25,408 nt of DNA from a virus, in IMG/VR virus record IMGVR_UViG_3300048921_000167, positions 1 through 25,408 of that record. One strand, given 5' to 3'. Positions 2,168 to 18,878 of the stretch are shown piece by piece. Under the pieces are notes generated by a model. That model was given only the letters and a program-made list of their open reading frames with translations. It was not told the origin of the DNA and searched no databases. Position numbers and translations under genes: made by a program. Within the stretch, counting starts at the first letter, position 1. Each line of letters starts with the position of its first letter.

Positions 2168-2971
2168 ATGGCCGGTGACTGGATCAAAATGCGAACAGAC
2201 CTTTCCGAAGACCCCGCAGTTATCGCTGTGGCTGCGCGATTGAACATCGACGAATTTAGTGTCGTCGGACGCTTGCATCGAATTTGGAGCTGGGCCGACA
2301 GCCAGTTGCGCGATGGGTATGCATACGGCATCACCCTCAAGTGGATCGATCGATACGTCCATCTCGATGGCTTCTCGAATGCCCTTCTCGATGTCGGCTG
2401 GCTCGGGAAAATAGAGAACGAAACCCTTCCCGAATCGGGAAACATTGGCCTTCTCGAAGGGAACGCTAATCTTCTCGATCGAGAAGAAATCGAGAAAGGT
2501 TTCGAGAAAATCGAGAAGGGCGTGTTCTTCCCGAATTTCGACAGACACAACGGTGAAACAGCGAAAACGCGTGCCGTAAAGACAAAAAACAAGCAGAACT
2601 CACGGGCAACCAACGGCCAATTCGCACTTCTCGAAGGTGATCTTCTCGATGGAGACAAAACGGGGACTAGAGAAGAGAAGAGAAGAGAAGAGAAGTACAA
2701 CCCCCAGGTGGCTTTCTCGATTTTCTGGAAATCCTATCCACGGAAGGATTCGAAGGTCCCTGCCGAGAAGGCTTTTGCCAAAGTCGCAACTTCGTTTGAA
2801 GTGTTCGACGCGATCATGGCCGGCGTCGAACGCGCGAAACAGTATGACCAGTGGCGCAAAGACCACGGCCAGTTCATCCCCTACGCATCGTCCTGGCTGA
2901 ATCAACGTCGCTGGGAAGATGACATTGACGAGCCCACCACGCACGACAATCCCTTTGCGGAGGCCCTATGA
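2168..2971 (+). CDS. O-like phage replication initiator containing the probable origin
   Basis: 267 residues, ATG at 2168. Residues about 1-85 (GDWIKMRTDLSEDPAVIAVA, HRIWSWADSQ, GFSNALLDVGWL) form the winged-helix type DNA-binding domain seen in phage replisome organisers. Residues about 95-180 are low-complexity, charged and encoded by the repeated CTTCTCGAWG iterons and an AGAAG tandem repeat. The C-terminal domain (FSIFWKSYPRKDSKVPAEKA and QFIPYASSWLNQRRWEDD) is the DnaT/O-type domain that contacts the helicase or its loader. The gene lies just upstream of a DnaB-type helicase, in the place of lambda O. As in lambda, the origin appears to lie inside the gene. The family is clear; the iteron-binding role is inferred. 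Confidence 0.82.
   Translation: MAGDWIKMRTDLSEDPAVIAVAARLNIDEFSVVGRLHRIWSWADSQLRDGYAYGITLKWIDRYVHLDGFSNALLDVGWLGKIENETLPESGNIGLLEGNANLLDREEIEKGFEKIEKGVFFPNFDRHNGETAKTRAVKTKNKQNSRATNGQFALLEGDLLDGDKTGTREEKRREEKYNPQVAFSIFWKSYPRKDSKVPAEKAFAKVATSFEVFDAIMAGVERAKQYDQWRKDHGQFIPYASSWLNQRRWEDDIDEPTTHDNPFAEAL
2361..2721. repeat. Iteron array, probable replication origin inside the O-like gene
   Basis: A 10-bp unit, CTTCTCGAWG, recurs in both orientations. Near-exact forward copies start at 2371, 2384, 2450, 2471, 2627, 2642 and 2712. Inverted copies lie at 2479-2486, 2489-2498, 2501-2510 and 2510-2518. One-mismatch variants (CTTCCCGAAT) lie at 2426 and 2527. A perfect 16-bp palindrome, CTTCTCGATCGAGAAG, is at 2471-2486. 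A purine-rich, AT-richer stretch at about 2565-2600 and the AGAAG repeat follow. This recalls lambda ori, where iterons in gene O sit beside an easily melted purine-rich tract. Confidence 0.7.
2671..2695 (+). repeat. Pentanucleotide tandem repeat (AGAAG)5
   Basis: Five perfect direct copies of AGAAG in frame within the O-like gene, encoding part of the charged linker TREEKRREEKY. The unit is not a multiple of three, so gain or loss of one copy would shift the frame ahead of the C-terminal domain. It also gives a strictly purine strand next to the iterons. Confidence 0.9.
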
Positions 2972-3489
2972 GCCGTCTCCCGCGCAATGGCGAAAACCTG
3001 CTGAACATGCGCCGAGAAGGCAACAAGCCCGAAGGCGTGACGCTCGTGTCGTTCGTTGGAAGCCTGCCGCACTCGAATTTCACGGTCTATGCAGAACCTG
3101 GTGATGCATGCGACTGGACCCCGCTGGCAGGACTCGAGATCGAGGTGCTGGTCAACGCATCAATGCCCATGCCGACGGTCTTGCGACAGTTGTCCGCAAT
3201 TGCCAGTGCCGCACCTGAGCACATGGTCCTGACATACGTCGAAGGCCCACGCATCGACTGCGGACAGGCGCGGTATTCGTTGCAGGCCTTCAACCCGAAT
3301 ACCGGCCGCATGCTCTTCGACTGGTTCCCGATGGCGATTGGTCCGTCTCACCTTGCCGACGCTTCGAAGATCGAGAAGCGCCTCTGGCGCGCGCTCGACA
3401 ACGAAATCCCGATCCCTTTCGATGCGTCTGAAAAGCGCCTCGTCAACCGCATGAACAAGGAGCTTGGCCGTGGCGCAAGTAATCGCTGA
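2968..3489 (+). CDS. Hypothetical early phage protein
   Basis: 173 residues, ATG at 2968 in an ATGA overlap with the O-like gene, so it is co-translated with it. It lies between initiator and helicase, where lambda carries the helicase loader P, but I see no AAA or loader motif. The sequence is mixed alpha/beta with a conserved-looking middle (HMVLTYVEGPRIDCGQARYS) and a basic C-terminus (KRLVNRMNKELGRGASNR). It has no signal peptide or membrane helix. I do not recognise the family; a role in replication is only suggested by position. Confidence 0.7.
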   Translation: MSRLPRNGENLLNMRREGNKPEGVTLVSFVGSLPHSNFTVYAEPGDACDWTPLAGLEIEVLVNASMPMPTVLRQLSAIASAAPEHMVLTYVEGPRIDCGQARYSLQAFNPNTGRMLFDWFPMAIGPSHLADASKIEKRLWRALDNEIPIPFDASEKRLVNRMNKELGRGASNR

Positions 3490-4456
3490 CACCGTCGATT
3501 TTGATGCTTACCTGACCGACGATGATGACGGTCGCGCCAAGGTGCGCCCCGCGTCCGAGTTCACCGACGATGTCGTGAAGCTGATTCACGGCGAGTCGGA
3601 AGAGGCAGCGGGGCATAAAACCCCGTGGCCGAAAGTCGAAAACCGGCTTATGTTCCGCCCGGGCGAGGTGAGCCTCTGGGCTGGCGTCAACGGGCATGGA
3701 AAGTCCGGAACGCTCGGATACGTGATTCTCGACATGCTGACGCAGGGCGCCAAGGCGTGCATTGCTTCGCTCGAAATGATCCCTGCCGCAACGATGGGCC
3801 GGATGTGCCGACAGGCAGCAGCCGGCAACATGCCCACCATCGAATACATCGAGAAATTCCATCGCTGGACGGACGGCAAGCTTTGGCTTTACGCACACCA
3901 GGGCCAGGTGCACGGCGACCGAATGATTGCCGTCGCGCGTTACTGTCGCAAGGAGCTGGGCGTCGATCACATCGTCATCGACAGCCTCATGAAATGCGGC
4001 CTCGCCCCGGACGATTACACCGGCCAGAAGAATTTTGTCGATGCGCTGTGCTCGCTCGCGCGCGATACAGGCCTGCACATCCACCTTGTCCACCACATCC
4101 GCAAGGGCGACACCGAGAAAGCCGCGCCGGACAAGTTCGACATCAAGGGCGCGGGTGAGATCACCGACCTCGTGGACAACGTTCTGATCGTCTTCCGAAA
4201 CAAGCGCAAGGAAGCGGACGTGGTCAAAGCTTCTCGCGAGAAGGATCCGGACAAGCGCGCCGAAGCGTTGCAGAAGCTCGACGGCCAGGGTGACAACATC
4301 ATCATCTGCGACAAGCAGCGCCATTTCACGTGGGAAGGATCCATCAACCTGTTCTTCGACAAGGACAGCCAGCAGTTGCGTGAACACCACAACTCGCCGA
4401 AGCAGTACATCGATTTTGCCTCTGGCCAATGGAAGACCGAATGGAGACGCACATGA
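3470..4456 (+). CDS. DnaB-type replicative helicase / RecA-fold ATPase
   Basis: 328 residues from GTG at 3470. An in-frame TTG at 3464 is possible, but AAGGAG at 3457-3462 is correctly spaced only for the GTG. The RecA-like core has a Walker A (GVNGHGKS, residues 72-79), the SLEM motif with probable catalytic Glu102, Walker B IVIDSL with Asp171, and a later LVHHIRKG histidine motif as in DnaB and T7 gp4/Twinkle helicases. The N-terminal 60 residues show no DnaB N-domain or primase, so it is a core-only version. It should unwind DNA at the origin in the O-like gene. It overlaps the upstream gene by 20 bp and the next by 4 bp. Confidence 0.85.
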   Translation: MAQVIADTVDFDAYLTDDDDGRAKVRPASEFTDDVVKLIHGESEEAAGHKTPWPKVENRLMFRPGEVSLWAGVNGHGKSGTLGYVILDMLTQGAKACIASLEMIPAATMGRMCRQAAAGNMPTIEYIEKFHRWTDGKLWLYAHQGQVHGDRMIAVARYCRKELGVDHIVIDSLMKCGLAPDDYTGQKNFVDALCSLARDTGLHIHLVHHIRKGDTEKAAPDKFDIKGAGEITDLVDNVLIVFRNKRKEADVVKASREKDPDKRAEALQKLDGQGDNIIICDKQRHFTWEGSINLFFDKDSQQLREHHNSPKQYIDFASGQWKTEWRRT

Positions 4457-17765: not shown

Positions 17766-18182
17766 ATGAAACAACTCGTGCAAATCGCGCCGGCTGACTT
17801 AGCGGCGGTCTGGTCACGTGTGCGCCCCGGACTCGAGTCGATGGATAAAGCCGATGGCTGGATCCCTGAAGACGTCTATTGCTCGCTCAAGTTGGGCCAC
17901 GCGACGCTGTACCTGGTGACGATCGATGAGGTCGAGCACGGCTTTCTGGTGCTGCGCGCGCTTCAGGACTATGACGGCGCGCGGCTGCATATCTGGGTGC
18001 TGCACTCGACGACCGGCGTCGACGTGATGGCAGCGTTTAGCGACGAACTGGATGAAATGGGGCGCCGCATTGGCGCAAAGAAACTTACGTTCGGAACGAC
18101 ACGGCGTGGGTGGGCTAAAACGGCTCCGAAGTACGGATTTAGTCAGCTCGAAGTGATCTGGCAGAGGAGCATCGGTGGATAA
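17766..18182 (+). CDS. GNAT-like phage structural-region protein
   Basis: 138 residues from ATG at 17766, one base after the upstream stop. The order of elements (LYLVTIDEVEHGFLVLRALQ, then LHIWVLHSTTGVDVMAAFSD, ELDEMGRRIGAKKLTFGTTR and RGWAKTAPKYGFSQLEV) follows the GNAT acetyltransferase fold, with the final GF-x-x-x-E-V strand. The acetyl-CoA P-loop motif R/Q-x-x-G-x-G/A is not clearly present, so it may be inactive. Such genes are frequent in podovirus structural regions with unknown role. Its last 44 bp overlap the 3' end of the opposite-strand HNH-type gene. Confidence 0.65.
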   Translation: MKQLVQIAPADLAAVWSRVRPGLESMDKADGWIPEDVYCSLKLGHATLYLVTIDEVEHGFLVLRALQDYDGARLHIWVLHSTTGVDVMAAFSDELDEMGRRIGAKKLTFGTTRRGWAKTAPKYGFSQLEVIWQRSIGG

Positions 18183-18807
18183 GATCCGCGTCGGACAACA
18201 GTTCCACTTTCTTCCATCGATGAACAGTGGAGTAGGGCACCCCGGTTTTATCCGCCAATTCCTTCAAGGTAATCCGCGCGCCGTTCATCTCCACCCATAT
18301 AGCGCACTTTCTATTTCTTACTTGCTCAATGGGTTTGGCCCAGACGCAATTGGATGGCTCGTAGCCGCCAGCGTTGTCGCGTCGTTCGATCGTCAAATCC
18401 GGTGCAGGGCGTGCGCCCATGTCGTCCATAAAAGCCGAGAAGCTATTGAGCCAAGCTTCGCAAACCGTAATGCCTTTTGCCCCATATCGAGCGAAAGCAT
18501 GGTTCTTTGGGTTGGTGCATCGCTGCTTCATTTCAGCCCAAACGCGGTACTCCGGAGTGCCACTCAGGCCGTGTTTGAGCATGCCCCGATGGTTCAGCTT
18601 CGACTGTTTTTCGCGGGCCGTTTCTTTCCGCAGACATCCACACGACGCAATGTCTCCGGACCTAAGAGAGGCCAATTTGGCTCCCTTTTTTATGCCGCAG
18701 TCGCACCTGCAAAGGACGAATCTGGCCTTTTGCGCGCGGTAGACGCGCGGAGCCAGTTCTTCGACGACGGTCATACGCCCGAATCGCAAACCCGCAAGAG
18801 ATTCCAT
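18139..18807 (-). CDS. HNH-type homing-endonuclease-like protein with C-terminal HTH
   Basis: 222 residues on the strand opposite to all surrounding late genes. I chose ATG at 18807 because GAGAG lies 7 nt upstream; ATG at 18846 has no ribosome-binding site. An N-terminal region has a Cys cluster C33-x-C35-x-C37 and C56-x-C58 that can bind zinc. The centre (MKQRCTNPKNHAFARYGAKG, then MGARPAPDLTIERRDNAGGY and EPSNCVWAKPIEQVRNRK) is the pattern of phage HNH-related proteins with an R-x-D-N-x-G-x-Y-x-P-x-N-C-x-W core. A C-terminal helix-turn-helix (ITLKELADKTGVPYSTVHRW) would give DNA specificity. Orientation, AT-richer sequence and insertion between late genes suggest an acquired free-standing mobile gene. 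Confidence 0.75.
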   Translation of the reverse strand: MESLAGLRFGRMTVVEELAPRVYRAQKARFVLCRCDCGIKKGAKLASLRSGDIASCGCLRKETAREKQSKLNHRGMLKHGLSGTPEYRVWAEMKQRCTNPKNHAFARYGAKGITVCEAWLNSFSAFMDDMGARPAPDLTIERRDNAGGYEPSNCVWAKPIEQVRNRKCAIWVEMNGARITLKELADKTGVPYSTVHRWKKVELLSDADLIHRCSSARSLRAD

Positions 18808-18878
18808 GTCGCTGCTCTCAGTTGTCTTGTGAGATCGATGGTACATCAAATTGAATCTGGTATTAGGAGAAAAGCATC

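Follow-up and report, generated by a model that had tools for sequence, protein, structure and literature searches.

A phage replication initiator gene very probably carries its own replication origin as an iteron array in its linker-coding part

Why does a phage gene for a replication protein carry, in the part that encodes a linker, many copies of a short DNA repeat? The question is raised by positions 1 to 25,408 of IMG/VR virus record IMGVR_UViG_3300048921_000167, a stretch of 25,408 nucleotides called the window below. A preliminary description had read the repeats as an origin embedded in an O-like gene. The protein is an initiator by profile match over its sequence to PHROG 2509 (E 1.5e-47) and PHROG 9474 (E 4.1e-41), termed 'replication initiation protein', and its gene lies in an early region of lambdoid type, with a CI-like repressor gene (minus strand) and Cro-like and CII-like genes upstream and genes for a DnaB/RepA-like helicase and RusA downstream. 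The helicase gene is two genes downstream of the initiator, where lambda has P; what accompanies the initiator is this AAA_25/DnaB-like helicase rather than a P- or DnaC-type helicase loader. The 173-aa ORF between the two genes (2968-3489) had no Pfam or PHROG match, and a similar 161-aa ORF occupies the same place in L219, the contig of relative L171 (see below). Elsewhere in the window, an ORF antisense to the late genes (18139-18849, minus strand) has, by eye, the look of an HNH/AP2-type homing endonuclease.

The AlphaFold2 model of the initiator has a confident N-terminal domain (pLDDT >90 for residues 11-80) that is winged-helix-like by secondary structure, followed by a long helix and a disordered linker and ending in a helical C-terminal domain. 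Helix 57-64 of the model is probably the recognition helix. Foldseek searches using the full model and the domain model gave no match below E 0.1, and no solved structure is confidently similar; the weak matches were to winged-helix domains of the MarR and Rep types. The C-terminal domain probably recruits the helicase or its loader. The name O-like is apt for how the protein seems to work, but not as a family assignment: none of 66 members of the initiator family matched PF04492 (Phage_rep_O) at E 0.1, whereas lambda O itself scored 5.7e-36, and the domain profile did not align with lambda O (probability 0.1%). Membership in the lambda O family was rejected on both grounds.

Exact copies of the core TTCTCGA/TCGAGAA number 11 in the array, seven on the plus strand and four on the minus strand. 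The count rises to 15 when TTCCCGA variants are included and to 15-16 with a further variant, CATCTCGATG, at 2360-2369, 5' of the first exact iteron. The earlier figure of about a dozen copies in both orientations thus stands. The repeat unit then proposed, CTTCTCGAWG, does not, as only four array copies fit it exactly (the others carry one or two mismatches) and the true core is the 7-mer. Likewise, the palindrome placed at 2471-2486 is perfect but is 18 bp long (TCTTCTCGATCGAGAAGA) rather than 16 bp. The repetitive LLD, LLE, and IEK peptides of the linker are present as described, together with FSN, FSI, DRE, and FEK.

Another 13 exact copies of the core are scattered over the rest of the 25-kb record, a density of 0.18 per 349 nt as against 11 in the array. 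Two protein-preserving nulls were run, each of 2000 trials. Redrawing codons from the window usage gave a mean of 2.7 copies (maximum 8) and permuting synonymous codons within the gene gave a mean of 2.5 (maximum 7), with none of the 2000 synonymous shuffles attaining 11. As the observed copies exceed both nulls, neither the amino acid sequence nor codon usage explains the array, and chance and codon usage were ruled out as explanations. Array copies occupy all reading frames and both strands and fall into two half-arrays (2372-2534 and 2628-2720). A DNA hairpin or cruciform was rejected, as no consistent signal was seen (z-scores +0.3 to -2.3).

Table 1 Features of the initiator locus in the window
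Feature	Position	Strand	Evidence or remark
Replication initiator gene, 267 aa, holds the array	2168-2971	+	PHROG 2509, PHROG 9474
Predicted winged-helix DNA-binding domain, aa 1-82	2168-2413	+	AlphaFold2; fold as we infer it
Iteron array, 11 exact TTCTCGA, both orientations	2372-2720		Exact count and shuffles
Iterons 1, 2	2372-2378, 2385-2391	+	Same aligned places in L176 and L183
TTCCCGA variants	2403-2409, 2427-2433, 2435-2441	-, +, -	T-to-C change
Iterons 3, 4	2451-2457, 2472-2478	+	Exact match
18-bp perfect palindrome	2470-2487		Formed by iterons 4 (+) and 5 (-)
Iterons 5-8	2479-2485, 2490-2496, 2502-2508, 2511-2517	-	9-12 bp apart, about one helical turn
TTCCCGA variant	2528-2534	+	T-to-C change
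Spacer between half-arrays, A+C-rich on + strand	2535-2627	+	Tentative candidate unwinding region in the window
Iterons 9, 10	2628-2634, 2643-2649	+	Exact match
Purine tract GAGAAGAGAAGAG, coding REEKRREEK	2669-2695	+	Beside second iteron cluster
Iteron 11	2714-2720	+	Start of C-terminal domain; codes FSI; same aligned place in L176, L171, and L183
C-terminal domain (FWKSYPRK ... WLNQRRWEDD)	2714-2923	+	Common to initiators with other N domains
DnaB/RepA-like helicase gene, probable partner	3464-4456	+	AAA_25 E 2.5e-8; PHROG 5482, 239, 19

The 2.9 million viral contigs of IMG/VR were searched for three successive TCGAGAA copies, no use being made of protein information. Four of the 61 stretches found were dense and of mixed orientation, and three of these (L171, L176, and L183, with 20, 18, and 15 copies, or 14-20 per 400 nt) lie inside the closest homologues of the window protein, which are 42-51% identical to it. 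The remaining one, L194, lies between genes, close to a DUF5906 gene. As a control, a permuted 7-mer hit 120 loci in IMG/VR, none of them dense and mixed and none in the initiator gene family. The genes that accompany these iterons vary: a DnaB-like helicase in the window and L171, a weakly P-like protein in L183/L217, and a nearby gene with a weak helicase-loader match in L176 and L218. The same iteron with different partner genes indicates that the iterons go with the DNA-binding domain rather than with whichever helicase partner is present.

L218, which came from a protein-profile search, is 78% identical to L176 (230/295) and carries TTATCGA 14 times. Nine aligned sites that read TTCTCGA in L176 read TTATCGA in L218, the same base being changed on plus and minus strands, and all nine switches are nonsynonymous (LLD to LID, IEK to IDK). 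A single TTCTCGA, at nt 205, has stayed the same, and there are several gains and losses of copies. Such a pattern would be expected if the specificity of the binder had changed by one base and the sites had followed. The two DNA-binding domains are identical at 71 of 80 residues, and among the nine differing positions T10A and Y63F set L218 apart from all four TTCTCGA proteins. As candidate specificity residues these are only a lead, drawn from one switch. Relatives thus keep the DNA repeat while the protein yields, which supports the earlier reading of the array as an origin. The GC-skew check proposed with that reading placed the cumulative minimum at 525, a value that is uninformative in a 25-kb fragment.

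The family was sampled as 83 non-redundant relatives (<75% identity). A de novo test, which called a repeated 7-mer significant when it lay beyond all synonymous shuffles (p ~0.001), was positive in 28 of the 83 and in none of 77 neighboring genes. Note that the test is conservative, because the iterons of lambda O, used as a control, reach just 50/500. One of five motifs could be assigned in 75 of the 83 relatives: GCGGAC in 37, GCGTGAC in 20, CGTTAC in 12, TTCTCGA in 4, and GTAGAC in 2. On the tree of the DNA-binding domain the motif changes seven times, compared with 33.1 times when shuffled, and 0 of 200 shuffles were as low; motif class was scored from linker sites past nt 303 alone, a part of the gene that did not enter the tree. 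Members of the TTCTCGA class, just four independent ones plus one switched, form a single supported clade, and other lineages have a different array at the same place in the gene. Mixed orientation, pointed out earlier for the window, is found there but is not peculiar to it, being the rule throughout the family. Exact-spacing DNA scans placed 46 of 49 loci of the GCGTGAC class and 118 of 120 of the GCGGACA class in or beside the initiator family; these were not taken as independent proof, because some sites encode conserved domain residues.

The other motif classes have two clusters of sites, the first in the domain-coding part and the second ending at the purine tract, with spacings of 11 bp (same orientation) or 12 bp (diverging), about one helical turn. 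This layout and regular spacing are looser in the class of the window. The two-cluster layout of a class-specific motif is also seen in phiPSA1, epsilon15, and the Rac phage of E. coli 442/2. The purine tract is near-universal across motif classes and adjoins iterons in most of the family, although it is absent from L171, L176, and L183. Regardless of motif and frame, most of 67 genes have a copy starting at a distance of 7/8, 18/19, or 31 nt from this tract. The A+C bias of the spacer is seen in the window and is clearer in L176, L171, L183, and L218. In close relatives the half-arrays are separated by a G/T-rich and then A/C-rich, AT-richer spacer, an arrangement that is not clear in the window. 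A 40-nt AT scan of the window showed no clear AT-rich unwinding element: its maximum, inside the array, was 62.5%, compared with 65-72.5% in close relatives and 80% in lambda.

Does the array serve replication, or something else? The recurrence of LLD and IEK peptides could suggest that selection for a repetitive, low-complexity linker at the protein level produced the repeats incidentally. However, the synonymous-shuffle nulls fall short of 11 copies, the sites in different frames and on both strands code for unlike peptides, and L218 shows parallel L-to-I and E-to-D changes. On present evidence this explanation is refuted by the L218 changes and the frame and strand spread of the sites, and we regard it as hardly credible. 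An operator through which the initiator represses its own operon or counts copies, with the origin elsewhere, is an unlikely alternative on different grounds. Iteron proteins often autoregulate, and the array is inside the early operon, downstream of the CII-like and Cro-like genes, but the sites lie 200-550 nt into the gene rather than at a promoter, are far more numerous than an operator needs, and have the placement of the lambda origin.

It is quite improbable that the sites are bound by a host protein or another phage protein rather than by the initiator. Non-coding DNA near a Prim-Pol/AAA_25 gene (L376) and near the DUF5906 gene of L194 does contain TCGAGAA/TCGATAA arrays, as do initiators with other N domains (L163 and L222), and the presence of such arrays beside the replication genes of unrelated phages means that the binder could be another protein. 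Within the initiator family, however, the motif changes with the N domain, and two otherwise very similar phages differ by a one-base switch, as a host site should not.

The array of L376 (IMGVR_UViG_3300009702_000042, 2183-3352) has 20 TCGATAA/TTATCGA copies, mostly in DNA with no convincing gene, and begins directly after the Prim-Pol and AAA_25 primase-helicase gene; from its sequence it resembles an origin whose iteron is almost that of the window but which has no initiator around it. That of L194 (IMGVR_UViG_3300028833_000338, 3849-4107) has eight mixed TCGAGAA copies and is apparently intergenic, upstream of the DUF5906 replication-type gene. L222 and L163 combine unrelated N domains (MARIRTIKPEFF... 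and MPNRIIRES...) with the same C-terminal domain and have six TCGATAA (mixed) and three TCGAGAA copies; either convergence or domain swapping may account for them. Seven more loci that share the C-terminal domain (L231, L250, L251, L270, L271, L282, and L285) have 7-mer arrays in or near the linker, often 10-12 bp apart and in one orientation. An intragenic array may therefore be a general design. The Rac origin oriJ exists (PMC3945230), but its position was not found in the literature searched. A link between the window family and oriJ was rejected, as K-12 ydaU encodes a different, DUF1376 protein. That gene (L215, 4120-4977; Rac, E. coli K-12) has TGTTCAAAC at gene nt 393 (+), 426 (+), and ~450 (-), a possible site of oriJ.

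Iteron plasmid origins are arrays of initiator sites, often phased, in which the repeats are usually longer, direct, and located outside the rep gene. The window likewise has an array of putative initiator sites, but its initiator gave no match in a Pfam search, plasmid Rep families included. A closer parallel is ori-lambda, an established intragenic origin within the O gene (PMC6022878, PMC7466680): in lambda and Stx phages, as here, initiator-site repeats lie mid-gene between the DNA-binding and partner-binding parts, with additional iterons lengthening the O protein (PMC7466680). In lambda the iterons number four, are 18-19 bp long, and adjoin an AT-rich region, with gene P next, whereas the window has 11-15 short, half-site-like cores of 7 bp that point both ways, shows no clear AT-rich block, and has a helicase gene downstream of the initiator gene. 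The earlier contrast with lambda as having direct iterons only was inexact, since the lambda iterons are themselves inverted repeats (PMC7466680, PMC6022878). The PHROG 2509/9474/270 initiators of epsilon15, phiPSA1, and the Rac phage of E. coli 442/2 belong to the same family by sequence; compared with them, the window class uses TTCTCGA, has more copies, and shows no cluster within its first 180 nt. For two replication genes, the O-like gene of Pseudomonas phage MD8 and ORF43 of Francisella phage KIRK, published accounts mention internal repeats or a putative origin, and the available portions of those accounts describe neither motif classes nor a spacing rule nor concerted switching (PMC8508860, PMC7924643). 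Intragenic origins in O genes are thus already known, and what appears to be new is the motif classes, the spacing rule, and concerted switching, which were not found described for the family in literature covering few subscription journals. That literature also gave no binding or replication experiment for any family member.

An iteron array bound by an initiator and lying inside that initiator's gene is very probably an origin, and we therefore consider it very probable that the array is the phage replication origin, made of sites bound by the protein of the same gene and working as follows. The N-terminal winged-helix domain would bind the TTCTCGA sites of the two half-arrays in either orientation, at intervals of about one helical turn. 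Several initiator copies would wrap or distort the DNA in a structure like the lambda O-some, the spacer or purine-tract region would be opened by the bound initiators, and the C-terminal domain would deliver the downstream DnaB-like helicase. Because the sites sit in the linker-coding part, the linker residues (LLD, LLE, IEK, DRE, FEK) are whatever the sites spell. When the recognized base changed in evolution, the sites would change together and the linker would follow.

On balance, we think it more likely than not that a large initiator family, uncharacterized in the literature searched, carries its origin as fast-changing short sites in its own linker, with two-cluster layouts and a fixed purine-tract register. 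New specificities would arise by concerted replacement of most sites and a few domain residues (T10A and Y63F are candidates), the initiator and origin co-evolving as a self-specific unit. It has long been asked how an origin and its initiator can change specificity in step, and here both are in one gene. At least five motif classes can be read from sequence, and nature supplies a pair, L176 and L218, in which nine aligned sites each differ by a single base, so that a few protein and DNA variants would suffice to test co-change. The arrays would also give a simple route to origin prediction in many uncharacterized temperate phages and would explain the odd repetitive linkers of their initiators.
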